From positions 7,354,924-7,418,923 of the forward strand of contig NC_049995.1 of the NCBI RefSeq assembly GCF_000003815.2: a stretch of 64,000 bases of DNA, read 5' to 3'. Positions 235-52,446 of this stretch are shown in pieces (within the stretch, counting starts at the first letter, position 1; each line of letters starts with the position of its first letter). Position numbers and translations under genes: made by a program. The notes beneath the pieces were generated by a model, which saw only the letters and a program-made list of their open reading frames with translations, ran no database searches and was not told the DNA's origin. The DNA is from Branchiostoma floridae (lineage: Eukaryota > Chordata > Leptocardii > Amphioxiformes > Branchiostomatidae).

Positions 235-295
235 GGTTATGAACCAGTGGAAGTGCCTTTCAACTTTGGTTGTAACTGCTCTACTCTTGAATGCC
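235..295 (+). CDS. Exon: end of a VWC-like cysteine module
   Basis: The acceptor is CCAG at 231-234 after a pyrimidine-rich tract; the donor is GTACGT at 296. Read in phase 0 it gives 20 codons plus one base, including the motif CNCSTLEC. The leftover C joins AA of the next exon to make a Gln codon, which supports the junction. It is the first exon visible; bases 1-234 are intron. Confidence 0.7.
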
Positions 296-3200
296 GTACG
301 TTTCTTTGATAAATTTTTGTAATTGGTAGTCATAATTTGATGACAATCGGCAGAGTCCATAGCATGCCCGCTTCGTTATGTCATTTATGCCTTTATGATG
401 TAATGATGTAGTTATGTCTGTTTATTGTCAGGCACTATGACCCATAAGGACGAACAATTGACAGGACATTATACCTGTGGCCAATCATCAAATGGGACAA
501 AGTCCCTGGCCCCAAACCCAGAAGAAGACTCTATCAGTACAATGTACATGTGGGTTGGTGCGAAGAGTAGAATTGGTGAATTATTGGCCAAAAGAATCGG
601 TCCATTGGAAGTCACATATCCACTATGTCAGGCAAATGAAACCCAACGGTGACCAAACTCTTCTTGCAAGTATTCTCTCTAAAGCCTAGTCTATGTTATT
701 AGTCTGACAGAGAAACCCAAAGGGTAATGGTTTGACTACATATTGACTGTTCTGGTTGCGATTTGAATTTGCCCAACGTACAGAACATAAAGCATTCCCA
801 GTCATTGGAGAAGCGTCAGGTGCAGGTTAAAGAGCCCAACGCACTTGTCCATTCGATTGGGAGTCTACCCTGGGTGTGCTTGACATAACTAATAGCGAAT
901 ATGTCATATTTCAACTAAATGTGATGACTGCTTTACCTTTTTTTTCCTTGTACCTTTTCCCAGAACCACTACCAGACTACTGCATCTATGAGGATTCTGA
1001 CTTTGTTGATTACATCACACAACTTGGGATTCCTCTTCCTCCCGGCATAGATATCGGCCAAACATTCTACGAGGTAAGGAAAGTTAGCTTTCCTGGTGAG
1101 AAAAAAGAGTTTCACAGATTTTTTCAGATTTTATCATGTTGATGTAATTACTATAGAGAGAACAAGGCATTCAAAATGGAGGTAAAGTTTCAAAACTGGG
1201 GTCTGGGCGGGCATCTTTTGGAAACGAAAAAGGTATGATATAAAAGACACCAAGCTTCATTTCTTAACTACACAAGACGTAAAGAGAATACTCATTTGCA
1301 TTATTGGTTATATTTATACGTATACATTTCCATTTCTCGTTTTCACACACATCCCGGCCGGGCCCCGGTTTGGAAAGGTGACGTTAGCCTAAATCTTTAT
1401 AGCTCACAAAATTATTCTGTTCGTTTGATTTATATATATTTAGCCGGGAGACATATGGCAGGCAGCCTTTGGATGTGTGGAATGCACCTGTCTGGAAACA
1501 GTGGAAGATGAAAACCATGAACATGGCGGTCGCCTGCATGAAATCGAATGTTACCCCACAGAAGATTGCGATACAACGTGCCCAGAACCAGTGAGTGACA
1601 ATTTTTTCTTCACTGTATAACTGTTACAACTAGCCTGGGTACCATCCGGATAGTAGTTCGCTCCTATGTTCGCTTCTGCTATCCAGAAACACAGAGAAAA
1701 AAAATCTAACGGTTCTTGGTGGAAGTCAATGTGCAGATGTTGGCACATCAACGCACCAAATCGGTAGTGTGTTTTTGGCACACAGTTAGACAGATTAGCC
1801 GAAGAGGCTCGGTGGGCGTCACTCCACCGTAAGGGAAAGTCGTGTAAAGTGCATTTCCCAAGGGCACAACGTCGGGGCATGGTGGGAATCGAACTCGGAA
1901 CCTTTCGATTCAGAGCCGAACGCTCTACCAGTTACGCCACGCCAACGCCACAGAAACACAGAGAAGCGATTGTATATAGTGTATAATGAATGTCAGAGCT
2001 AGAAGCGACTGTATATAGTATATAATGAACGCCGGAGCGAACGACTTTCCGGATGGTACCCAGGCTATGTTACAGCAACATTAGAGGGCTTCTTCATAAA
2101 GTGTTGAAAAGTTGTAATTTTCCCGCGGACAGTACAGCTGTCAGACATGTTGTTGTTAACATCCCGTGAAGTACCAATGAGTTGTAAAAAGTACCCGTGT
2201 GTCGAATACCTTTAAGATAGCGGTGATTCATTTTCACGCGTAGGAGTGATTAGATTGTTTGTTTGTTTTATTAGGATCTCCATTAGCGATACCGCCGAAG
2301 TGGTACCGCTATTCTTCCTGGAGTCCGAAACTTACATATATATATATATATATATATACAATAAAAACTAACATAATCAACGAAACTTATACAATTGTTA
2401 AACAGAAAAGTTGTTTGCAATGATTTTATTTGGCGAGGGCGATATAGTCATAATACCCAATTACTATAGTATGGAAGCACCAACAGTTTTGAGTTCACGG
2501 GGAAGCGAACATGAAATCAACGTAAAAATGTCAATAATTTAACAGCAACATGAAATATTGCACTACAGTCAAACCTGTATATAGCGGAAAGATGGAGAAA
2601 TATGACCACTATAGACAGGTGACCACTATAGAGAAAATGTTGATCAATTGACCATGAGTAAGCTTCACATGATTTCAGTTCCCACTAATCTTTCTCACCA
2701 AGTAACATTGTCTCGATCGGTAAATTCACCGACAAAGACTTGCACTTTAATGCTCAAGGCATGCATACATTCTGCTACCGCCAAAATAACCCTGTCGGGA
2801 ACTCCAAATCCTCGCAAACTACAATTTCAAACTCGGTGCAGGGTGACATAAGGCTGCAGTATGGTTGCAATAGGCAGTGTTTCGGTATCTACGGGACCGA
2901 AAATCGTGTGGCTGTGGCCGCGTTGGACAGGTGGCCGCTAAGCCTATTTCTTAATCATTACGAATCCAAGGGACCGACAAAAAGTGGTCACTGTGGCCAG
3001 GTGGCTGCTATGCAAAGGCCGCTAATACAGGTTTGACTGTATTTCTTAACTGTTTTTGCACTGGGTGTTGTTTCAGTGCACGGCATATACGCCAAGCACA
3101 ATACCGGGGACGTGCTGCGGAACGTGTGAACCTATTCCTTGCTGCGTAGTTGGATTGGATGGCGGGGAAACATTCTATGGCGTAAGTAGCTTCACAACAT

Positions 3201-6200
3201 ATCTTTTGTTGATTCAACATATCATATAGTCAGATAATGCCAACTTTGATCTTAATTATCAGAGCGACACTTTTCACTATACTTTGATAATTTGCACATG
3301 ACATTTGCTTAGTTATTGAACTATTATAATTTCCTTCCATTTTGTTAATTGATATAACACTTTTGTATTATTGTCTAATGTATAATTTTTCACATCTATC
3401 CAATTTTTATAAGTTTATGAATTTTGTATTATAATTTGTTACTTTTTGGGGAAGACTATGTATAAGCCACAAGGCTTTTTTCCTCCCCCCTGCACGTTCT
3501 TTCCTCCTTTAATTTGTGTTATGTTATCTTTTTTAAAGATTGTGCAAAATTGATAAATCAAAAATCAATCAATACACCATATCTGATCTCAAAGTACACG
3601 TAAACCATGCGTATAGCAAACTGGAGCATACTTTCGTAAAAACGCAACCTTTACGCACACACTAAGGCGTGCTAAAGATTGGATTTCGTGCAGTAATTTG
3701 TCAGTCACCAAGTGCAACGGAATACTTGTTCAAAGAATAGCTACATCATTCATATAGATAGACAAATAGATACATAGATACAATGTAAATAGATAAATTT
3801 TGATGGATGTACTATGTGTTTGAATGTGTCACACAAACTCACATTGTATATCACAGGGTTCACATTAGATGACTTGCCCCACCTAGACCATTCACGTTCA
3901 AGCTTAGTTGCTGTTAGGCATTGAATATATATAAGCTTCTTCCCGTATTCTATCAACTTAAGTAACTGAAAATGTATAATGGTCCCTGATGGCAACATGG
4001 CAAACCTGCACATTCTGTTCTTGCACTTCTACTAGATAAAAAAAGAAGACGTTGAATTTATTTGTATTTGTAATTTGCTATCTTTAAACATGTTTTGTTG
4101 CGCCTTCCCCAAAAAATACAAAAAAAAGTTTTTAGTCATCATTTAGTCAGTACTTAAAGGATAAAAAGACCCTTAACGTAGATGTAAGACAACAGGTATT
4201 ACTCCGCAATATGCCTTACCTTAGCACCTTAGTTATTCTCCTGTTTTTGAGGCACATTGTTGTCCTTTTCCACGTATCTTGTTGTTGCTTCCCTCCTATC
4301 TATATACGAAGTTCCAAGTTCTTTCTCTATATTTAATCTTCACGTCAATTTTGGCCCACATTTACTTCTCCTTCGTTTCCCTCTGATTTTGATTTGTTTT
4401 CTCATAGCTTCAAGAAAACGAATGGTAGTTGACTATTTTACACTGTTCAATTGATTTGTTTTCTCATAGCTTTTTTTTTTCACTGATTTCTTTATAGCTT
4501 TAAGAAAACGAATGGTACTTGTACATTTTGCACTGTTTAGTATTTGATTTTATTGATTCTGTATCCTCTGTCAACTTATGTTTTATCCTCTTATTTTAAT
4601 TTCAGCTAACTTGATGTGTGTGTTATTGGTCCACGCATGCTGACACATCACACTTTAATAGAATTTCATTCATTCATTCATTCATTCATTCATTCATTCA
4701 TCCCTTTCCTTCCTTTATTCCTCCACCCTGGGAGAGCATACATATTATATACAATTATGTACAAATGTTGAAATATTAAACGCAACATAATTACAACTCG
4801 TCTCATCTTAAACGTTTCTGGAACAACAGTCCTGCGTTTCTGTTAGATTTCTGCACACAGCATAACTACACCTTGTCATGCCAAACGTTTCTGGGACAAC
4901 AGTCCTGTGTTTCTGTTACATGTCTGTACACACATAGTTACACCTCGTTTTGTCATAAACGTTTCTAGAACAACAGTCCTTTGTTTCTGTTACATTTCTG
5001 TACACACATAGTTGCACCTCGTTTTGTCATAAACGTTTCTAGAACAACAGCCCTTTGTTTCTGTTACATTTCTGTACACACATAGTTACACCTCGTCTTG
5101 TCATAAACGTTTCTAGGACAACAGTCCTGTGTTTCTGTTACATTTCTGTACACACATAGTTACACCTCGTCTTGTCATAAACGTTTCTAGGACAACAGTC
5201 CTGTGCTTCTGTTACATTTCTGTACACACATAGTTACACCTCGTCTTGTCATAAACGTTTCTAGGACAACAGTCCTGTGTTTCTGTTACATTTCTGTACA
5301 CACATAGTTACACCTCGTCTTGTCATAAACGTTTCTAGGACAACAGTCCTGTGCTTCTGTTACATTTCTGTACACAGCATAACTACACGTCGTCCTGTCG
5401 AACATGTTTCTGGAACAACAGTCCTGTGTTTCTGTGTTACTGTTCTGCACACAGCATAACTACACCTCGTCCTGTCGTACATGTTTCTGGAACAACAGAC
5501 CTGTGCTTCTGTTACATTTCTGCACACAGTATAACTCCTCGTGTGTGTGTGTGTGTTATGTACAAATATTAAAATATTAAACGCAACATAATTATACCAC
5601 GTCCCGTCTTAAACGTTTCTGGTTCAACAGTCCTGCGTTTTTGTTACATTGCTGCACACAACATAGATACGCCTTGCCCCTACTTAAACTTTCCTGGGAC
5701 AATAGTTCTGTGTTTCTGGTACAGTTCTGCACACAACATAAATGCACCTCGTCCTGGCTTGAACGTCTCTGTTATTCAATAACAGTCCTGTGTTTCTGTT
5801 ACAGCTTTAAACAGTTTTCATTCGTTCATTCATTCATTCATTCATTCATTCATTCATTCATTCATTCATTCATTCATTCATTCATTCATTCATTCATTCA
5901 TTCATTCATTCATTCATTCATTCATTCATTCATTCATTCATTCATTCATTCATTGGTCCCGTCTTCTCCTTCCATCTATCAGGTAAATGACACCTATGGA
6001 CTTCCGGGAGACAATTGCACCGTGTGTGAATGCATTGAAATTGTGGCACCTCCCTTCAGCCACCCTACGGTGATGGAGACTTGTATGCCGCATATTTGCT
6101 TGCCTGAACCTGAACTACCTGGGTTCTGTTACCACGATCCATACACTGTTGAGACCTACACTGAGGGAGGACCCGAAGGATTCTGTTGTGTGAAGCACAA

Positions 6201-9200
6201 CTGTAAGTGTGTTTCCTGGACATTTGAATAGAAGGCAGGATGAAAACAGCTGGCTTGAAGAGAAACGCTTGAATCTCATCATATGCACAACTTATAACTG
6301 TGTGAACCAAAGGGTATAGGAGAAATCTTGTGCACAACCTGGGTTTACTTACTTTGCTTACGTTTCGGTGTCTAACAGACACCTTCCTCGGAGCTTCTGC
6401 TTCTCGCCACTATAGTTAGCCGATGTAGGTGATCCTTTTGCGGCGAAAACACAATCCTAGTGCCACCTACATCCAGCCCACTATTTTTTTTTAAGTTCGG
6501 TTATATTTTGCGTGAAGATAGGATACTCCAGCAAATAGATTCCTTTGTAGCGAAATGGACAATTGTTTTTAGTATTGCCCATTCACAAACAATTAGGTTC
6601 AGGTCCGTACCTGTACCTGAATTTTCTGTACCGGTATCCACCCCTAAACCCACACTTAGATTTGCCACGCTTTCGGTTTTAACTTTATTTAAACTAGAAG
6701 GAATCTGACTCCTTTCACCAAAGACAAAAAGAATTAACGGATGTAAAAACGAAATTGTGGTCTTCTTTCCAACCTGCAGGTTTCAGAAGGGAGGGCACAC
6801 CAGAGGAATCATGCCAGCCATACAACTATACCGATAATATTCACTATTCGACTGAGGATGAAGATGGTCATGAGCTTGACTGTGTCAGTACAGCAAAAGT
6901 ACTGCACACCTACTGTGAGGGTCAATGCACTACCCAAGCCACTCTTCACAGTGAGTGTTTTATCCTTTTGTCAACGTCTTCATTTATATCTGTGTACATA
7001 GGATCCACTGAATGCAAGAGCAGAGTCAGGATATTGTACGATAGGTACGTGAATTGAGGGTATATTCAGTTGTCGATTTGTTGTTGTACAAATGTGAAAT
7101 GTGTAGTAGATTATATAATATGAATGTCCCTAAACAGACTATGTAGTTTGTATATCTTGTGACAGCAAGGTTTTCTGTAGATCCTTGTTGACGTTTGGCT
7201 CTTTTATAACCTTACTGAACATCATGTAGTGAAAAGAAAAACCTTGTGACACTTTTCCGATTAGCTGGATTTGGCCTTGTAAATATGAAGTTCTTTATAC
7301 AATGGCGTTAATGGGAAAGGGTTTGATTTCACAAGCATTGGCTGGATTTTGCTCCAAAGCTAATAGCAATTTTCTTCTTCGTTATTACGTGCTCAACCTC
7401 AATTAAGCTGAGAGCTCGATGTAAGACGTACACAAAACTGTTTAAGTTTTGATCCACTCACCCCGGGAAGGACCCCTAGTCTTTTCGAGAAGTGTGGCGG
7501 GTTCTTTTACGTGCTTGCGTGGGGTGTGGCCTTCCCTGAACACTGGACCTACATTTAATATCGTATCCTAGGGACGTCCCTAGCCGAAGCTAGGTACTCA
7601 TTTAAGTGGTTAATTCTGTACCTCTTTCTGGTTACAGCATCACCACCACATTGCCCGCCTGACTGGCACTCAGATGACGGTATCAGCTGCTACAAGATCA
7701 TACACGAAGAACGTGATTACCAAGGTGCAGCGGACAAATGCGCAGAGTTAGACGGACGGCTTGCAAGCTTTTGGACTGCAGACAAGGAGGTAGGGCTTCG
7801 AAACCATAACAACTTTGAAAGAGATTGACAATCTATTGTAAAATGGCATTAAAATATTGGGAGCTTTGAATGCATCTGTGCAACAATTTTATGTGAAGGG
7901 AATGTAGAAAAGCAGAGCGGAATCGTCGTCTTGACTGGAAGTGATTTTGAGAGTATGCTTTGATTCGAACTCTCATCGTCGCAATGTAGTAGGGCTATCC
8001 GCATCCAACCATGCGTAGTAGGCCATGGAATTGTTGTTCAGCAAAGGACCGAGCCACCAGATAATGAATGAAGACTTTTGTTGCACAGTTTTGTCCAACC
8101 GAGCTAAGTACAGGTCACAACAAGTAAAAACATGTATAAGTTATATATACATTTAAAAGTATCACAAATCTAATCTAACACAAGAGTTCGGCTTCCTCTC
8201 GCTTCTTGGTAATTGTGAAAATGTAGGACTGTATGGGTTTAGCTATGGTCGGTTTGTCAAAACGCATGAGAAATATAAACTTGTCAGTGCTACTCATGTG
8301 TCTAAAATGAGGGAATTCTACTTTCCATGTAACTTAATAGAGTATTTCTACCATTGACATACATGTCGCAATCAACAGTGAAGTGCACTTCATCTTCTAT
8401 CATGTTTGAGGTACAAAATTGGCAGACTCTTTGTTCAAAAGGAGTGCGGTTGTGCATGGCAACCTGCTGCGGCTCTCATTCGGGTGTTCCCAAGTACTGC
8501 ATTAAGGTCAATCTCGGACCACCAACCCGTTCAGCTCAGCATGGGCGATTCAAGGAAAATTCTTTGGCCTACCTCCTATGATCCAGCCAACATTTGTAGT
8601 ACAGCTTGTATCTACATGGAGCGGGGTTAAGAAACAAGAGAGTCTGACCAAATTTCAAGCTGTAGAATGTTCACTACAAGACAATTATAGTCAGCAATTG
8701 AACAATTGAAGTTTTCTTTTCCTTGGTTCATTTTATGAAGCAGTTGTAAATTAAGTGCTCTCAAAGCCCACTGATAGATGCTCAGCTTGCTGAGCAGAAA
8801 GACTAACAGCCAACATGTCATTCTCACAAGCCTCGGAGTTTCGTCTTGGCCTTTTGTTTAATGTTCTTAACGTCATAAGGAAAATACTATCTACCTCAGG
8901 TTACTTCTGCTATTTAAACGCCAGAGGGAATGGGTTCGAAACCACTGATTTTTCTCGATGTTTTGCCCTTGGGAAATGTACTTTACTCAACTTTCCTCAC
9001 TTCACTCAGGTTAAAATGAGTACCTAGATGTTTGAGGAGGGACACAATTCGACCATGTTTAATGACCCACCGCACAAAAGACTGTCCATCATAATTAGCA
9101 GTTCAACCAAAGATAGCCTGGCAATTTGGAAATAGACCAATGAGAGAATGGCTGCATGTCCGTCAAATATTTGCATTATTATGTTTTTATTTTGCATCTC

Positions 9201-9855
9201 TTAAGAGACCATGGGATCAGTCTACGGTGCTCTAAATTGCTATATCTTTCGGTTATAATATTTATTATTTGATCTTATATTGTGAAAATTTGTGTGGTTA
9301 GGGTGAAAACTAAATGGAAGCTGATTTTAGAATTAAGTTTTGTCTGTTTGCCCCATTGACCTCGTCTTCGATCTATCATGGCCGCCGAGTGAGAAAGGTG
9401 TATTGTAAGCTCCTCGTAATTCAGCTCACCCAATAACAATAACACTCACACATTTTCTTGTCTTGGACAGGCATACCTGCTGCAGCTGTTGGCAAATTAT
9501 ACAGGCACACAAGATCTCTGGGTGGGCTTGGCGATTGACCCGGACACAGGAGTATGGACATGGACTGATGGAATGGAAGCTGAACCTAACACGTAAGGAA
9601 TTAGGTTTCAGTTTTACTGTAAATGCAGAAATGTTCGCGGTGGATTAATGTTCGCGTTTTTCGCCGCTTCACCGCGAATTTAAAACCACCGCGAACATTT
9701 TCCATAACAGTAAGAGACTACAGTGCATGGTGCTACCGCGAAATTAAAACCACCGCGAAAAGTCCACTTTCCCGCTACCGCGAAATTAAATCCCCGCAAA
9801 CTTAAATGCATTTACAGTATCTCCATGAAAATGGAGATATTGTTTTGGATGTGTG

Positions 9856-9909
<54 letters not shown>

Positions 9910-11698
9910 CCGGATTTTTGTAGACATCATAGCTCAAGAACCTCCTGATGGATTGCAATGATATATAATATGTAGGTAGGTATTGGAAAGACAACGGTCA
10001 AGGTCAATTTTGGACCCCTAGTATGTGACCATGGTACTGCAGCAGAACTTCCATATTGTGTATATTTTGACATGGACATGCTATGGTCTTGATTGTTTGG
10101 TGACAGATAACTTGTTTAGTATGAGTTTGGCCTCAGCTGGAACAAATAGAACAAAAGCTGCTGCAGTTCCAAGGCCACCCACCAGGGGGACCTAAGATGG
10201 ACCTTGATTTTCGTCTTCTCAACACCTACCTACATCTCAAATATCATCCCAGTCCACACGGAGGTTCTTAGTAAGCTGAATACAAAAATACAGAAGCACA
10301 GAATAAGGGCAAACCCAAAACAGTACTTTCTTTTATTCATTGAGGTAACAAAGCAACAGCCATAGCAAGAACTAAGATGCAATTTTAATAATAAAGTTTA
10401 TTGCAAATTCTTGCCCGTGGGCTAACTGCAGGTAACATAAGAGATTCAGACAAAGTAAAAACAATATGAAAGGTGTCTACTCTAGTCTAAAACTAGTAAA
10501 AGCTAACTCTAGATCCTGGGTTATTGGGTTCGACTCCTTTTTCAAAGACAGTGAAAGACGAAAGATCCCACCTTTTCTATTATGTGTGGGGTAAGAAGGA
10601 GAATTGTTTTCTTTTTGTCGGTGAATGTTAAGAAGTTTGGATGGAATTTGGTGGCCTCTTCAAACAGCTCTTTTCTTTCGTGATCATATTAGAAAGAGCA
10701 GTTTGACATAAAATGTGTTTCGTCTTCCACCATGTTTGACGTGCAATGTTTGCACGTTCTTTTACCTACTGCCCTTCTTTTACCTACTGTTCTTTTACCT
10801 ACTAACCTACTGCCCTTTCGGCCTAAAACGGTAATGGGATTACAGTTGTATCTTTACCATCACCATTCGGCCACTTTGATTTGATTCTTTCAGTTTCCAG
10901 ATCGCGTGCTCCTGATAGAAACTCAATATTTTTCCCCAAATACAGGAACTGGGCGTCCATCACCGAAGCAATCGATGGAGATATCTGCGCAGCGGTCACG
11001 CCTGCTGGCGTTTTCGTTTCTAGGGACTGCCTCTGGTCCTTCCCATTCATCTGCGAACGTGCGCCAAGTAGGTTTGCCCTGTACTTACATGTACCTTTGT
11101 CAATTGATACCTTACCGTTTGTCTTTGAATGTAAGTTCATCTGTGACGGTAGTCAACATTATATTACAACTTTAAACTCTATCTCCTTACAAAAAAAGCG
11201 CTTACCAACAAGCTTTCGATCAGTCCTCTTATCCTTATCAAGTTGAAATGACGCAGAGCCTATGTCACACAATTGTGATGTTAGCAAAGGGTCAAAGGTG
11301 CTTACAAGTCGGTGTCGGCCCCCGTCTTGGTTGAGGGAAGGTTGGTGGGGTAACCGTTTGTCATTGCATTACCTATACACTTGCCAAATTGATTAACTGC
11401 TCGCTTTGCATTCGGGCCTATTAACTTGCCTTGAGCATAAATGTTCAATAAAGCTCTTTCAGTTCATTCCATTGATGATGGTACTTGATGTCTCTCTGCA
11501 GCTACTAAGGTGAGGGACCTGTGCCGCTGCTGTACTGCCAGTACTTTCGAGGAAGAGGATGTCCCCATGTACTGTAGTAGTTCCAGTCCCACTGGTGAAG
11601 ACAAGTCCTTCTACTTCAGTCACCGCATCATCACCGAATGTGTCTGTGAAGAACACTACTGTGAGGATGAAGATGAGCATGAAGTTCCCTTGGGCTAA
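235..11698 (+). CDS. 3' part of secreted VWC-CTLD-CTCK protein gene (10 exons)
   Basis: Partial gene; its 5' exons lie left of the window. Ten exons were placed from AG/GT splice sites, and all junction phases agree (exon phases 0-1, 1-0, 0-0, 0-0, 0-1, 1-1, 1-0, 0-2, 2-1, 1-stop). The summed coding length is 1407 nt, giving 468 residues. Domains in order: the end of one cysteine-rich VWC-like module, a full VWC, a second VWC-like module, the first half of a C-terminal cystine knot, a complete C-type lectin domain, then the second half of the cystine knot and a stop (TAA, 11696-11698). In known families (mucins, VWF, otogelin, SCO-spondin) VWC arrays ending in CTCK belong to large secreted, disulphide-linked proteins, so an extracellular or mucus role is likely. 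The lectin domain within the CTCK is the odd feature. Domain calls rest on cysteine spacing and motifs read by eye, and no orthologue name is claimed. Confidence 0.85.
964..1073 (+). CDS. Exon: first half of VWC domain
   Basis: A strong polypyrimidine tract and CAG end at 963; the donor GTAAGG starts at 1074. It begins with two bases of a split codon and ends in phase 0. It codes the opening VWC cysteine (DYCIYEDSDF) and the segment ending GQTFYE, which matches the usual VWC start of a Cys, a Gly and an aromatic ahead of a G-D-x-W segment in the next exon. Confidence 0.8.
1444..1590 (+). CDS. Exon: second half of VWC domain
   Basis: 147 nt, 49 codons, phase 0 on both sides (acceptor TTTAG ending 1443, donor GTGAGT at 1591). 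It contains the VWC hallmark PGDIWQ followed by the C-x2-C-x-C motif CVECTC, then two further cysteines in ECYPTEDCDTTC. The VWC ends in the next exon. Confidence 0.85.
1631..2067. mobile_element. TA-flanked palindromic MITE (mariner-like) split by a SINE
   Basis: Terminal inverted repeats: GCCTGGGTACCATCCGGA at the left and its complement at the right (TCCGGATGGTACCCAGGC), both flanked by TA. The right half also carries a near-duplicate of about 55 bp. A SINE (1699-1950) interrupts the element. A fragment of the same family is at about 62315-62370. Confidence 0.75.
1699..1950 (-). mobile_element. tRNA-derived SINE, nested in a MITE, with 15-bp TSD
   Basis: On the - strand it has a tRNA-like head with an A-box-like GGCGTAACTGGTAGAGCG and a B-box-like GAGTTCGATTCC, then a body with TTGTGCCCTTGGGAAA. 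The 15-bp target-site duplication CAGAAACACAGAGAA is at 1684-1698 and 1951-1965. Not a functional tRNA. Confidence 0.8.
2245..2330 (-). mobile_element. 3' tail of a non-LTR retrotransposon (fragment)
   Basis: On the - strand it reads ...GGAGATCCTAATAAAACAAACAAAC, typical of a LINE 3' end with an AAAC-type tail. No coding sequence remains. A TA microsatellite follows at 2335-2358. Confidence 0.45.
2335..2358. repeat. (TA)n microsatellite
   Basis: About 12 TA units. Confidence 0.9.
2565..3040. mobile_element. Palindromic DNA transposon remnant (ACAGTCAAACCTG termini)
   Basis: It begins ACAGTCAAACCTGTATATAG and ends with the complement (CTAATACAGGTTTGACTGT), with inner motifs of the GTGGCCGCTA / GACCACTATAGA type repeated in inverted order. 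It lies in the intron before exon 3077. It has no transposase ORF. Confidence 0.65.
3077..3181 (+). CDS. Exon: VWC end (CC-x2-C) and start of next module
   Basis: 105 nt, 35 codons, phase 0 on both sides (TTTCAG before 3077, donor GTAAGT at 3182). It contains the VWC-terminal motif GTCCGTCEP and then begins a second module (PCCVVGLDGGETFYG). Confidence 0.85.
3210..3575 (+). mobile_element. 5'-truncated copy of the RT element at 51352 (3' end only)
   Basis: It shares the 3' signature with the element at 52800-52920: TATAAGCCAC, A/CGGCTTTTTTC, CCCCTGCACGTTCT, TTTTTAAAG, then a tail of AAATCAATCAA units. Only 3'UTR sequence is present. Confidence 0.75.
4130..4705 (+). mobile_element. Possible retroelement 3'UTR with (CATT)n tail
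   Basis: T-rich sequence with an internal direct repeat (TCTCATAGCTT...AAGAAAACGAATGGTA near 4400 and 4480-4520), ending in GAATTTCATTCATT and a (CATT)n run at 4667-4702. The assignment is tentative. Confidence 0.3.
4760..5800 (+). repeat. 74-bp minisatellite, about 13 copies
   Basis: Unit ACGTTTCTAGGACAACAGTC...; clear unit starts at 5107, 5181, 5255 and 5329 (exact 74-bp spacing), diverging toward both ends. A 45-bp flank (ATATTAAACGCAACATAATT) occurs both at 4770 and at 5570, so the array has a second, rearranged block. It lies in the intron before exon 5983. Confidence 0.9.
5821..5955 (+). repeat. (ATTC)n microsatellite, about 33 units
   Basis: Nearly perfect tetranucleotide run ending 27 bp before the splice acceptor at 5982; it creates an artefactual open frame of HSFI repeats. 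Confidence 0.95.
5983..6202 (+). CDS. Exon: second VWC-like module and linker
   Basis: 220 nt; the acceptor is ATCAG (5978-5982), only 27 bases after a 130-bp ATTC microsatellite; the donor GTAAGT is at 6203. It codes GLPGDNCTVCEC, the C-x2-C-x-C core of a second VWC-like module, then cysteines at METCMPHIC, FC and FCC. It ends in phase 1; the last base T plus GT of the next exon gives Cys. An open frame runs upstream through the microsatellite (poly HSFI), but that is intron. Confidence 0.85.
6780..6950 (+). CDS. Exon: N-terminal half of the CTCK domain
   Basis: 171 nt, phase 1 on both sides (TGCAG ends 6779, donor GTGAGT at 6951). After a linker with one Cys (EESCQPYNY) it codes ELDCVSTAKV and HTYCEGQC. 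This is the C...C-x-G-x-C signature that opens CTCK/cystine-knot domains. The exon stops just after TLHS, where a continuous CTCK would proceed to C-x-CC; that part is found in the exon at 11502, after the lectin exons. Confidence 0.8.
7430..7612 (-). mobile_element. SINE body fragment (same family as 55035-55295)
   Basis: The reverse complement matches the SINE body at 55137-55292: AGCTTCGGCTAGGGACGTCC, GAACCCGCCACAC, GAGTGGATC. The tRNA-like head is absent. It ends 25 bp before the CTLD acceptor at 7637. Confidence 0.6.
7638..7789 (+). CDS. Exon: C-type lectin domain, part 1
   Basis: 152 nt, entering in phase 1 and leaving in phase 0 (GTTACAG ends 7637, donor GTAGGG at 7790). It codes the long-form CTLD start CPPDWHSDDGISCYKI and then the helix-1/helix-2 segment with A-x-x-x-C and LASFWTADKE. 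These match the first two cysteines of the long form and the conserved C...L-x-S region. Confidence 0.9.
8240..8640 (-). mobile_element. Degenerate non-LTR ORF2 end (CCHC-type zinc motif)
   Basis: The - strand reading gives VCQFCTSNMIEDEVHFTVDC, the C-x2-C...H-x4-C motif near the end of some LINE ORF2 proteins, with flanking similarity to 44085-44366. Broken frames; a dead copy. Confidence 0.55.
8925..9030 (+). mobile_element. SINE fragment (tRNA-like family)
   Basis: It contains GGGTTCGAAACC (B-box-like), TTTGCCCTTGGGAAATGTAC and TTCCTCACTTCACTCAGGT, as in the full copies at 29651 and 1699. Confidence 0.55.
9471..9592 (+). CDS. Exon: C-type lectin domain, part 2 (WVGL, EPN)
   Basis: 122 nt, entering in phase 0 and leaving in phase 2 (TTGGACAG ends 9470, donor GTAAGG at 9593). 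It codes DLWVGLAIDPDTG, VWTWTDG and EAEPNT. WVGL (WIGL type) is the lectin core; EPN is the Ca2+/mannose-type sugar-binding tripeptide of classical CTLDs. Confidence 0.9.
9615..9819. mobile_element. Palindromic MITE, TACTGTAAATGCAGAAATG family (copy 1)
   Basis: Both ends read TACTGTAAATGCA... in inverted orientation, with interior GTTCGCGG / CCGCGAAC palindromic blocks. It starts 22 bp after the donor of exon 9471-9592. Further copies: 45877, 47619, 49634. Confidence 0.8.
9851..9907 (+). repeat. (GT)n microsatellite
   Basis: About 28 GT units in the CTLD intron. Confidence 0.95.
9908..10268. mobile_element. Palindromic interspersed repeat
   Basis: The left arm (GTAGGTAGGTATTGG, GGTCAAGGTCAATTTTGG) and right arm (CCTTGATTTTCGTC, CACCTACCTACATC) are inverted copies. 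A one-armed copy is at 58985-59130. Confidence 0.6.
10384..10860 (-). mobile_element. Non-LTR retroelement 3' fragment (family of 43995-44470)
   Basis: It matches 43998-44360 in order (TTTATTGCAAATTCTTGCCC, GTGTCTACTCTAGTCTAAAA, GAAAGAGCAGTTTGACATAAA). Decayed frames. A small TTTTACCTACT tandem (about 10760-10815) lies at its inner end. Confidence 0.65.
10946..11067 (+). CDS. Exon: C-type lectin domain, part 3
   Basis: 122 nt, entering in phase 2 and leaving in phase 1 (ATACAG ends 10945, donor GTAGGT at 11068). It codes NWASITE, GDICAAV and SRDCLWSFPFICER, giving the last two CTLD cysteines and the conserved PFICE-type end. The usual WND calcium-binding triplet is replaced by VSRD next to the third cysteine, so Ca2+ site 2 is only partly conserved even though EPN is intact. 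Confidence 0.9.
11502..11698 (+). CDS. Terminal exon: C-terminal half of CTCK and stop
   Basis: The acceptor CTCTCTGCAG ends at 11501; the exon enters in phase 1 and ends at TAA (11696-11698). It codes LCRCCTAS (the C-x-CC of CTCK), VPMYCSSS and ECVCEEHYC (the closing C-x-C-x3-C), then an acidic tail EDEDEHEVPLG. It completes the knot begun in exon 6780-6950. A direct join 6950 to 11502 is also in frame (phase 1 to phase 1). Confidence 0.85.
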
Positions 11699-16343: not shown

Positions 16344-19300
16344 CTATGGAAAAAATGCATGAATAAAAATAATTCGTCTTACACATTAATATTAGGAGGT
16401 CTATGGCTCCAAGTAAGAATGCACAGAGGAGTGTATTGTGGGTAATATGTCTTAGATGAAGGCCCCTAACATGTTAACCAACACAGTTATTAATCATGCA
16501 GACCACCAAGGAAGACCGGACGCTGTAGCCCGACCAAGAATTCACGAATTCGTCTTTCGAAAGGGACGTAAAACGGGTCTCCCGTGTTCGAGGAGGTGCC
16601 TCGAGCACGTAAATTAGCCTCATTACTAAAAAAATGGGGTACCTACTGGGTGCAAATGATATACCAGATGTATTATTTCTTACATGCCTAAATGTAAGAG
16701 TCCTTCACCTTTGGCATATTGCCCACAATGCATTCCGTCACGCATGCGTACTTAGAACGACGGACGTCCTTGCCATGGAGATGATGATGCTATTCAGGGA
16801 CTCAGTCACGAGTTGTAAGTATGCATCTATTATTCTTTAAATATCTATTTACAATATTAAAGTTGGTAGACAGTGCATCGAATCATACAGCCATACACAC
16901 GTGCACAGACACACAAACATACGAGAAGTCATATTTCAATGGTTAAGACCTTACTTACCTTTGGCCTGAGAAGCTGTGGGTTTGACAGATTTCTGTGAGT
17001 GAGCGTTTCTGGTTGGCTGACTAGTTGGCACGATGGGGCGTGGCGAAGTTGTCGTCATTACAACAGATGAAGATAGAATCGCCGGTACTGTTGTTGCTAG
17101 TGTTGTTGTTGTTTGTCCTGCTGTTGTTTGTGCTGTTGTTGTCTCACCTACCGTTGTTGTTGTTGTTTGTCCTGCTGTTGTTTGTGCTGTTGTTGTTGTC
17201 TCAGCTACCTTTGCTGTTGTTGTTGTTTCTGTTGTTTGCGATACTACAAGAAAACATTTTGTTGCGAGTGAATTACGACATTTTCTGCCACCTTAAATTT
17301 CTGTGACCTTTCTGATACCTTTGACCAATTTTCACGTGTGTAGCGTTAAGATGCCCATTGCGGTACAGCGGTTAAAACACTACGTTTTCATGGTAGTAAA
17401 CAAATAAAACGTATAAAAGTCGTCTATTGCAGAAGTTGGAATCTATACTATCAAAATCGAGATTAGCTGTAGACACTTCACAAAGTAGTCAAATACGTAG
17501 ATGCATATTGTAAAATCTTTATTCCTAACGTATTAGAGATACAGAGCAAGAATTGCACTTCGATGGCAAGGTTGTTTTCAATATGGTAAGTTGATCTATA
17601 TATATACATATAGATATATATTGTGCTTGATACCAAGTTAAGAGTACTTAGTCTAGTATTAATCACTTCGGAGTATAAGCATTAATTTTACCATACGTAT
17701 AATATACTACTGTAGTCATTTTTTGTGGAGGTCCACAGTTCATAGCATGCATGTTCAGGTATATTCATGGTTAGTAATGTCAGAGCTTTCTTCAACGTGC
17801 ATTACTTAGTAACACTAATTACCTTCTGCTGTTATACCAGTCTACAACTTTATGATAGATATATTGTTAAGTGCAGAGGTCACAAATGTTTTATCCTTAG
17901 TTTGTAACATGTATTGTTCTGGCCAATGTTCGCGTATGAGTCTTTTCATGGTTCCAACTGCATTTGCATATTCATACATGACTGAGATGGTGGCTTGTCT
18001 TGGTTCAGTGATTAGTCATCCTGCCTCTGAACCTTGGATTCGAGTGCAGGGATTTTCGACCCGCAGTTTTAGTCCCGGAGGCTGTTCCGGAGTTTTTTTT
18101 AGTCCCGGAGGTTGTTCCAGAGTTTTAGTCCCGCAGGTTGTCCCAGAGTTTGTTTAGTCCCGGAGGTTGTCCCAGAGTTTGTTTAGTCCCGGAGGTTGTC
18201 CCAGAGTTTTAATCCCGGAGGTTGTCCCAGAGTTTTTTCAGTCCCGGAGGTTGTCTCAGAGTTTTTTTCAGTCCCGAAGGTTGTCCCGGAGTTTTCTTAG
18301 TCCCGAAGGTTGTCCCAGAGTTTCCTTAGTACCGGAAGGTTGTCCCGGAGGTTGTCCCAGAGTTTTCTTAGTGCCGGAAGCTTGTCCCAGAGGTTGTCCC
18401 AGAGTTTTAGTCCCAGAGGCTGTCCCAGAGTTTTAGTTCCGGAGGTTGTCCCAGAGTTTTTTTTTTGTCCCGGAGGTTGTCCCAGAGTTTTTTTAGTCCC
18501 GGAGGTTGTCCCAGAGTTTTTTTTAGTCCCCGGGGTTGTCCCAGAGTTTTTTTTAGTCCCGGAGGTTGTCCCAGAGCTTTAGTCCCGAAATGTTCGTCCC
18601 ATAGTTTTAGTCCCAAACTTTTAATCCCACGGTTAGAGTGCCAGTGTTTTAGTCCCGGAGTTTTCGTCCCAGTAGGTTACCACAAATGGTATCGTCCTTT
18701 ATAGCAAATGAAGCTGTAGTACACTGTCCATTAGGCTTGTCGAAAAGGGAGAGGACACTTCGTTGTAAAACACGTAGTAAATCAAATTGATGCGCATTGA
18801 TTCTTATATAGTTACATTGATCATCTTTTAGACCATATACAGGCTTTTCATTTGACGTCATTTACTCGTACTGCATACAGTGTACGTCTGTTGGAAGTCA
18901 ACATAATGCTGCTTTAATCCTCCAGTTACCCGTCAACATTTTCGGCAGGACTTCAGATTATAATAACCATTACGATACCAATGAAAAGCATCTATACACT
19001 ATGATAAGGCGCTTATGCGACTGAACTCGTGTAGCCCTAGAAGTATGTTGGAATGACGTGATGACGTTCCTTCTTACTCGTTAATGCTATATCCAGTTGG
19101 ATGTGGAGAGGCTTTGCTTTATAGAAACTAACTACTGAATTTTCAGGCACTTATATGTATCCAGGCTACTTGAAACATATTAAAAGACGCACTATAGGAC
19201 CGCTATATTACTTAGCCCTCCATAATAACAACTACTCAAACAAATTAAACGCCGTCATTGATTCTTGAAAACAACAGGATAATTGTCATTAATTCTTGAA

Positions 19301-29650: not shown

Positions 29651-29830
29651 GGCGTCGTGTGTGGCGCAACTGGTAGAGCGTTCGGCTCGGGATCTAGAGG
29701 TCCCGAGTTCGATCTCCACCTTGCCCCGACGTTGTGCCCTTGGGAAAGGCACTTTACAAGACCTTCCTCACTTCACCCAGGTGTAAAAATGGGTACCTGA
29801 CTTCGGTCGGGGAGGTAAAAGAAAAGACTA
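29651..29830 (+). mobile_element. tRNA-derived SINE
   Basis: A-box-like GTGGCGCAACTGGTAGAGCG, B-box-like GAGTTCGATCTCC, then TTGTGCCCTTGGGAAAGGCA, CTTCACCCAGGTGTAAAAAT and GGGTACCTGACTTCGG. It has the same head and body as 1699-1950. It lies about 60 bp upstream of the LRR gene 5' exon. Confidence 0.8.
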
Positions 29831-43994: not shown

Positions 43995-44470
43995 TAACAA
44001 GTTTTATTGCAAATTCTTGCCCGTAGGCTAATTGCAGGAAACATAAAAAGATTCAAACAGTGTAAAATACAATGTCACAAGTGTCTACTCTAGTCTAAAA
44101 CTAGTAAAGCTAACTCTAGATCGACTCCTTTTTCGAAGACAGTGGAAGACGAATGATCCCACCTTTTCTATCATGTGTGGGTTTTGTGATGTTAAAAGGA
44201 GAACTGTTTTCTTTTTGTCATTGAATGTGAGAAAGTTTGGGTGGAATTTGATGGCCTCTTTGAACAGCTCTTTTCTTTCTTGGTTATAGAAAGAGCAGTT
44301 TGACATAAAATGTGTCTCGTCTTCCACCACGTTTGACGTGCATTGTTTGCACGTTCTTTCACACACGGATCTAAGCCTCTTGTACCGCCCTCTCTCAATT
44401 TAACAGGGGCATTTTTGTCAAAAACTTCAATGTTACTATCCTGGCTAGAACCAGTAGGTAGCACACCTCT
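43995..44470 (-). mobile_element. LINE ORF2 C-terminus with zinc motif, 5'-truncated
   Basis: The - strand reading gives GRYKRLRSVCERTCKQCTS and then VEDETHFMSNCSFYNQERKE, the C-x2-C...H-x4-C motif common at the end of LINE ORF2 proteins. The frame then runs to a stop near 44085 and a 3'UTR ending TTTGCAATAAAACTTGTTA. The frame is intact over about 90 codons; everything upstream is lost. Related decayed copies: 10384-10860 and 8240-8640. Confidence 0.75.
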
Positions 44471-51351: not shown

Positions 51352-52446
51352 AGAACAAAGCACAACCATTGGGTGAACCCAAACAAACTCAACACATATG
51401 GTTTCAAAGGCTCTGTACTTAAATGGTTAAAAGATTATCTGTCAGAGAGAACGCAGTATGTTTCTAATAACAGTTTTGTCTCGTCCCAGAAATTTGTTAC
51501 ATGTGGTGTCCCGCAAGGCTCCATACTAGGACCTCTTTTATTTTTGATTTATGTAAACGACCTTCCCATGATATCAGACAAATTTTTCGCCTTAATATTT
51601 GCAGATGACACCAATCTTTTTATGTCACATAAAAATTTTGATACACTTATTTCAACAATTAACGATGAACTTTGCAAATTAAATCAGTGGTTTAAGTCAA
51701 ATAAGTTATCCCTAAATATAGACAAAACAAATTTCATCATTTTCACAGGAAGAAATAAGAAATACAGTAAAGAAATGGCAAAGTTACACATAGATAATAA
51801 ACCCATTAAACAGGTAAGCAACGCACGGTTTTTAGGAGTCGTTATAGATGAAAAACTCACGTGGAAGTTTCACATAGACATCATTTGTAAGAAAATTGCT
51901 AAGAATATTGGTATCATAAGAAAAGTCGCAAACTGCCTATCTCGTAAAATATTTATGACTCTTTACTACAGCTTGATATACCCCTACTTAACATACTGCA
52001 ATATAATCTGGGCTAGTACCTACACTACCTCATTAAAACCACTGCACCTACTACAAAAACGTTTTGTTAGAATTGCATCAAACGCCTCTTTTATAGCAAA
52101 TTCAGCAACTTTTTTTCACAATCTGAAGATTTTGACAGTATACGACATAAACAAATTGCAGTCAGCCATTTTCGTCCATAAAGTTATTCACAATAATTCT
52201 TTCTTACCAGTCCTATATAAAGACATTTTTAAGTACAACGCAGATATTCACGATCACAGTACAAGGCAGCAAAATAGTCTTAGACCTATCAAAACAAAAT
52301 CGAACCTAACACAATTTACTATAATGTTTAGAGGCCCATCCATATGGAACACTCTAAGTCTTTCCCTACGAAATTGTCAGTCCCTTTCCATTTTCAAGAA
52401 ACGTATGAAAAACAACCTTATAGAGAAGCCAACTATTTACTCCTGA
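51352..52446 (+). CDS. Non-LTR retrotransposon reverse transcriptase, 5'-truncated ORF2
   Basis: An open frame from just after a stop near 51351 to TGA at 52444-52446. Motifs in order: LNTYGFKGSVLKWLKDYLSE (RT domain 3), CGVPQGSILGPLLFLIYVND (domain 4), FADDTNLF (catalytic FADD, domain 5), LNIDKTNFIIF (domain 6), FLGVVIDEKLTWKFHI (domain 7), then the thumb/connection and a typical end FRGPSIWNTL...FKKRMKNNLI. The endonuclease and the N-terminal RT are absent, so the copy is inactive, but the remaining 360 codons carry no stop or frameshift, implying recent insertion. The clade is probably CR1/L2/Rex1-like. It is an interspersed element, not a host gene. Confidence 0.9.
   Translation, partial: RTKHNHWVNPNKLNTYGFKGSVLKWLKDYLSERTQYVSNNSFVSSQKFVTCGVPQGSILGPLLFLIYVNDLPMISDKFFALIFADDTNLFMSHKNFDTLISTINDELCKLNQWFKSNKLSLNIDKTNFIIFTGRNKKYSKEMAKLHIDNKPIKQVSNARFLGVVIDEKLTWKFHIDIICKKIAKNIGIIRKVANCLSRKIFMTLYYSLIYPYLTYCNIIWASTYTTSLKPLHLLQKRFVRIASNASFIANSATFFHNLKILTVYDINKLQSAIFVHKVIHNNSFLPVLYKDIFKYNADIHDHSTRQQNSLRPIKTKSNLTQFTIMFRGPSIWNTLSLSLRNCQSLSIFKKRMKNNLIEKPTIYS

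Follow-up and report, generated by a model that had tools for sequence, protein, structure and literature searches.

Can a cystine knot hold a whole second domain between its halves and still be one knot? The question is raised by a lancelet gene whose 3' end lies in the window studied here, the whole analysed stretch of 64,000 nucleotides at C17:7354924-7418923, from a genome that was searched across 513 Mb in 431 contigs. In this window, the two halves of a C-terminal cystine knot (CTCK) are separated by three exons encoding a C-type lectin-like domain (CTLD). The gene extends upstream beyond the window start, exon 235..295 being the first within the window, and its exons there are the following:

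235..295, + strand: Cys-containing exon of the VWC region, assigned by eye; phase 0 to 1, open frame with AG/GT borders
964..1073, + strand: exon of the VWC region; phase 1 to 0
1444..1590, + strand: Cys-rich exon, VWC-like by eye; phase 0 to 0
3077..3181, + strand: Cys-rich exon, VWC-like by eye; phase 0 to 0
5983..6202, + strand: Cys-rich exon, VWC-like by eye; phase 0 to 1
6780..6950, + strand: first half of the CTCK, through C-x-G-x-C plus 7 residues; phase 1 in and out, 171 nt
7638..7789, + strand: CTLD exon 1; phase 1 to 0, 152 nt
9471..9592, + strand: CTLD exon 2; phase 0 to 2, 122 nt
10946..11067, + strand: CTLD exon 3; phase 2 to 1, 122 nt
11502..11698, + strand: second half of the CTCK (C-x-C-C ... 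C ... C-x-C-x4-C) and stop; phase 1 in, 197 nt

The five exons from 6780 to 11698 were found with the positions, phase-1 bounds and 396-nt cassette that the original prediction had given them, and all have AG/GT borders; its knot motifs C-x-G-x-C and C-x-CC are likewise present, but the closing motif, which it had read as C-x-C-x3-C, is actually spaced C-x-C-x4-C. The sequence gives intron phases of 1, 0, 2 and 1 behind the first four of these exons, and the CTLD cassette (152+122+122 = 396 nt), with phase 1 at both ends, is flanked by introns of 687 and 434 nt. Past the donor at 11067, about 58 codons can be read before the first stop, so that a shorter form with the CTLD at its end is conceivable. 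When joined, the five exons from 235 to 6202 (215 aa, between D4 and the CTCK) gave no Pfam match at E 1.

Several repeats and other open frames were also observed in the window. A long TTCA repeat (5820-5955) stops about 28 bases short of the acceptor of exon 5983, and the same intron holds a period-74 repeat (4809-5474). Another repeat occurs in two copies, one within the last intron of the CTLD cassette (10530-10765) and one at 44121-44362, matching at 84-95% in pieces. Furthermore, an inverted pair was found at 1834-1940 and 29661-29767 (107 nt, 89% complementary), the first copy having by eye the look of a tRNA-derived SINE. A 364-aa open frame on the + strand (51352-52446) resembles, by eye, a LINE-type reverse transcriptase, and a Thr-rich, mucin-like open frame lies on the opposite strand (16951-17292, -).

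Once joined, the CTCK halves display the motifs C-x-G-x-C, C-x-C-C and C-x-C-x4-C and 11 Cys, and a Cys is found at 11 of the 11 positions of the VWF CTCK, a domain for which four intrachain Cys pairs and three interchain cysteines are given in the available text of PMC8626975. In a PDB search, the joined CTCK retrieved the VWF CTCK (9qrv at 1.5e-4 and 4nt5 at 2.3e-3) as its sole two matches up to E 10; the N-half alone retrieved no cystine knot up to E 10, and the C-half alone retrieved VWF at E 4.6 only. A profile HMM was built from eight CTCKs (six lancelet rows of the 12 found with MUC2, plus VWF and MUC2), from which the focal CTCK was excluded. The original prediction held that removal of the CTLD leaves an in-frame CTCK, and proposed profile searches with and without it; these bear the idea out, as the joined CTCK gave a single match (positions 14-90, 39.7 bits) whereas the CTLD-containing form gave two, at 15-39 (16.3 bits) and 42-90 (19.3 bits), with 31.9 bits for the whole sequence. 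The halves alone scored 18.6 and 21.7 bits, and 400 decoys with one half shuffled reached at most 25.1 bits. The joined CTCK stays below the Pfam cut-offs of DAN (15.5 bits, cut-off 22) and Cys_knot (15.1 bits, cut-off 24), models that may not reach VWF/mucin knots.

The CTLD interrupts the CTCK between HMM positions 39 and 42, and the domain is thus an interrupted CTCK rather than an uninterrupted one. When the joined CTCK was compared with the window by tblastn, its second half was found only at 11501-11695, all other matches having E values of at least 1.1; this rules out, within the window, an uninterrupted second half directly after 6950, and the assumption that none had been missed there holds. 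Used as a genome query, the joined CTCK retrieves only its own two exons, its relatives being obtained via MUC2. On sequence grounds, the halves flanking the CTLD form one cystine knot domain.

The search of the genome with the MUC2 CTCK yielded 12 places, two of which, L029 and L033 (contig C4), carry an intron 7 residues after C-x-G-x-C, in phase 1 and 6 full residues before C-x-C-C, as in the focal CTCK. These host-site introns measure 828 nt in L029 and 421 nt in L033, and their translations show no CTLD. Elsewhere in the loop, an intron is found in phase 0 in L030 and in phase 2 in L027 and L031; L034 has an acceptor resembling that of L031, its first half not being found. Four rows (L038, L032, L035 and L037) have no intron in that loop, L028 has an intron ahead of C-x-G-x-C, and no knot was seen in L036. 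An intron ancestral to all lancelet CTCKs is ruled out, as only 2 of the 12 rows share site and phase.

A tree was obtained from nine CTCK sequences, namely six of the 12 MUC2-found rows, VWF, MUC2 and the focal one, the other six rows being unassembled or of other knot kinds. In this tree the focal CTCK, whose branch is long (1.5), groups with L033 (0.801), and those two with L029 (0.976). Because L029 and L033 have the same intron without a CTLD, the host intron is probably older than its CTLD; alternatively, L029 and L033 may have lost theirs. The view that an exon-shuffled CTLD was captured by a phase-1 intron in the knot, which had been put forward from the letters of this locus, gains from the same empty site in L029 and L033 and from their grouping at 0.976, but the knot is not a lone case, nine upstream CysD modules being alike.

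The knot CTLD (131 aa) is recognised by PF00059 (3.1e-13, 50.8 bits, cut-off 22.6) and is of the long form, with six Cys. EPN/QPN and WND-like motifs are the usual sugar/calcium motifs of C-type lectins. By eye, in the CTLD alignment, EPN/QPN-like and WND-like residues are absent from the knot CTLD at the aligned places, the letters EPN being present but ahead of the canonical place, and the CTLDs of the CysD cassettes are likewise without aligned EPN/QPN and WND-like residues. The name lectin therefore fits the CTLD fold but not the canonical sugar/calcium motifs. Since these residues are missing, canonical calcium-dependent sugar binding by the knot CTLD appears unlikely; it may bind proteins, microbes or other glycans, or have a mechanical role.

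The 110 kb ahead of the window were read on the same strand. Three VWD stretches, one TIL and WxxW were recognised by Pfam; Thr/Pro-rich (PTS) exons, further TIL-like stretches, a C8-like stretch and VWC-like exons were seen by eye, as were EGF-like stretches near 7254-7263 kb. The order on one strand is VWD/TIL assemblies, PTS with CysD, a later VWD, VWC and CTCK, in which VWC and C8 are by eye only. A 10-kb N run (7292125-7302083) parts the N-terminal part and the first CysD module, M0, from modules M1-M8 and the window, and the view that both sides of it form a single gene is drawn from the order and strand of the parts. If it is one gene, its span is about 110 kb (7256402 to window position 11698), the stretch from M1 to the end being about 62 kb. 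This order is that of a gel-forming mucin and suggests that the gene may encode such a mucin; M0 may belong to a neighbouring gene.

Nine CysD modules (in loci L007-L010, L024 and L041) have a first part, with WxxW, and a second part split by three CTLD exons:

C17, about 7256-7262 kb: M0, beyond the N run, CysD with CTLD
C17:7304-7342 kb: M1-M8, CysD with CTLD

When joined, the CysD of M8 matches Mucin2_WxxW over 1-88 (4.3e-10); if the insert is kept, Pfam matches the CTLD at 4e-9 and WxxW only over 17-88 (9.4e-6). The CTLDs of M1 and M8 match Lectin_C (1.5e-8 and 2.5e-9, respectively), and in the remaining seven modules the CTLD was identified by its resemblance to that of M8. The exons of the cassette have the phases 1-0, 0-2 and 2-1, as in the knot, in eight of the nine modules (M0-M3 and M5-M8), the border between exons 2 and 3 of M4 not being resolved. 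All 30 genome matches of the M8 CTLD at E <=0.001, from 59 candidates scored, fall either in M0-M8 or in an inverted copy at C17:6.454-6.466 Mb, which also shows the first part of M1 that was not found ahead of the N run. This copy (L039-L040, minus strand) reproduces part of the repeat region, lies between N runs, is 91-99% identical in its five longest pieces, and is either a separately placed haplotype copy or a duplication of part of the region.

In a tenth CysD, M9 (7342.9/7343.8 kb), the corresponding place is taken by a phase-1 intron of about 0.9 kb that has a weak donor (GTTATT) and holds no CTLD. When seven CysD cassettes were compared in 21 pairs, 20 pairs gave dN/dS values of 0.45-0.77 and one gave 1.27, and therefore constraint looks weak. 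Because the nine CysD modules hold a CTLD in the same way as the knot, the predicted nesting is recurrent in the gene and not confined to the CTCK.

Our main reading, to which we assign a probability of roughly 0.77, is that a CTLD cassette sits in a pre-existing CTCK intron of a mucin-like gene, and that the knot closes, dimerises and displays CTLDs. A three-exon, phase-1-flanked cassette would have entered the older phase-1 intron, between C-x-G-x-C and C-x-C-C, so that in the protein the knot would extrude the CTLD as a loop. A CTLD has its two termini close together and can therefore be spliced into a loop, which here sits between the matches of VWF Cys2754 (knot) and Cys2771 (interchain). 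As the 11 VWF-matching Cys are kept and the CTLD has its own six, the knot is expected to close round the CTLD and still dimerise, each subunit presumably showing one CTLD at the dimer node. Further CTLDs would be presented along the chain by the cassettes of this kind that lie in the first part of the nine CysD domains. Disulfide-locked mucin domains might in this way act as bases on which lectin-like modules are displayed in mucus, where these could bind microbes or particles or form cross-links, probably without a canonical calcium-dependent sugar site. The gene layout is real and recurrent, and the mature protein likely carries the nested CTLD; its inclusion in mRNA, folding, dimerisation and ligand binding are what we infer from the sequence. 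The CysD fold is described in the accessible part of PMC11912381 as a stable scaffold for evolving new interaction capabilities, and lancelets feed with mucus nets from the endostyle, as stated in the available text of PMC6109156, which is a plausible setting and not evidence.

Simple chance is excluded by the profile scores, the decoys and the recurrence. With 396 nt and phase 1 on either side, the cassette is symmetric; skipping it would keep the frame and restore the knot, and the CTLD could be an optional part, included rarely or in a tissue-specific manner in what is otherwise an ordinary CTCK. However, the single exons are asymmetric (1-0, 0-2, 2-1) and therefore all three could be skipped only together, and the nine CysD modules with the same anatomy suggest that inclusion is tolerated, which makes this explanation unlikely. 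It is also quite unlikely that the insertion disabled the knot, leaving no dimers and a C-terminus that serves otherwise: 11 of 11 Cys positions are kept despite sequence divergence, although the CTLD enters shortly before the Cys matching the interchain Cys2771 and Cys2773 of VWF, and the focal branch (1.5) is long in the CTCK tree. A separate gene nested inside the CTCK intron would agree with CTLD exons lying wholly inside the interruption of the knot, with flanks of 687 and 434 nt, and with the frame open for about 58 codons to a stop past 11067. We find it highly improbable, given that both cassette ends match the host intron phase, that no leader was recognised by eye in the open stretches of the first flanking intron (the longest of 57 residues), and that the same arrangement is repeated in the upstream CysD introns.

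A further alternative concerns the origin of the knot CTLD, which might derive from this gene's own CysD cassettes by copying rather than from a new capture. The shared gene and the same three-exon phase pattern speak for a copy, but this pattern is common among chordate CTLDs and therefore is no proof of copying within the gene. Moreover, in a comparison including seven of the nine CysD cassettes (M0 and M4 left out) and the seven best outside loci, the knot CTLD was nearer to the latter, seven single-exon lancelet CTLDs (z 20.7-24.9, about 30% identity), than to the seven cassettes (z 5.1-11.9). We hold a copy to be doubtful; the CTLD tree is not decisive between copy and new capture.

Returning to the main reading, it seems rather probable that one mucin gene repeatedly made its cysteine-rich domains into display bases by means of phase-1-intron CTLD cassettes, once in the CTCK and nine times in CysD. 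Exon shuffling is usually viewed as beads on a string; if our reading is true, nested insertion, and not end-to-end addition, would be a working route for it, and the dimer node plus nearly every CysD node of the mucus would bear a lectin-like head. Two different cysteine-rich folds would take a whole domain inside, and as there are empty-site relatives for both (L029 and L033; M9), domain-in-domain insertion without folding loss is directly testable. A rigid domain would thus seem able to take in another one entire, which points to an unusual mucus design in a filter-feeding chordate.

Among known systems, the literature searches on this layout turned up no CTLD nested in CTCK or CysD. The 11 Cys positions of the VWF CTCK (4nt5, 9qrv), including the three interchain ones, are shared with the lancelet knot, which differs in holding about 132 CTLD residues between C-x-G-x-C and C-x-C-C and in having extra residues ahead of its second Cys and behind its eighth. 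In alignments to MUC2, the knots of Norrin and Gremlin also have extra residues in the same loop; these are a few residues, whereas the lancelet insert is a whole domain. Empty counterparts are the lancelet paralogues L029 and L033 (C4), with the CTCK intron at the same codon and phase and without a CTLD; among the WxxW rows listed at the paralogue contig (C4:18.00-18.01 Mb), 8 of 14 span the whole model in one frame. Ci-GFM1 of Ciona is another chordate mucin that gained binding domains, in its case chitin-binding, and differs from the lancelet gene in that the available part of its account (PMC6109156) mentions no nested domain. The gene also resembles the gel-forming mucins MUC2, MUC5AC and MUC5B, which are alike in VWD/TIL assemblies, PTS with CysD repeats, a late VWD, a Cys-rich stretch and the CTCK; human MUC5AC has nine CysD and MUC5B seven, according to the accessible text of PMC11912381. 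The lancelet gene differs from these three in the CTLDs nested in its CTCK and in nine CysD, and its predicted layout is that of a gel-forming mucin variant with an interrupted CTCK rather than a new class of system.
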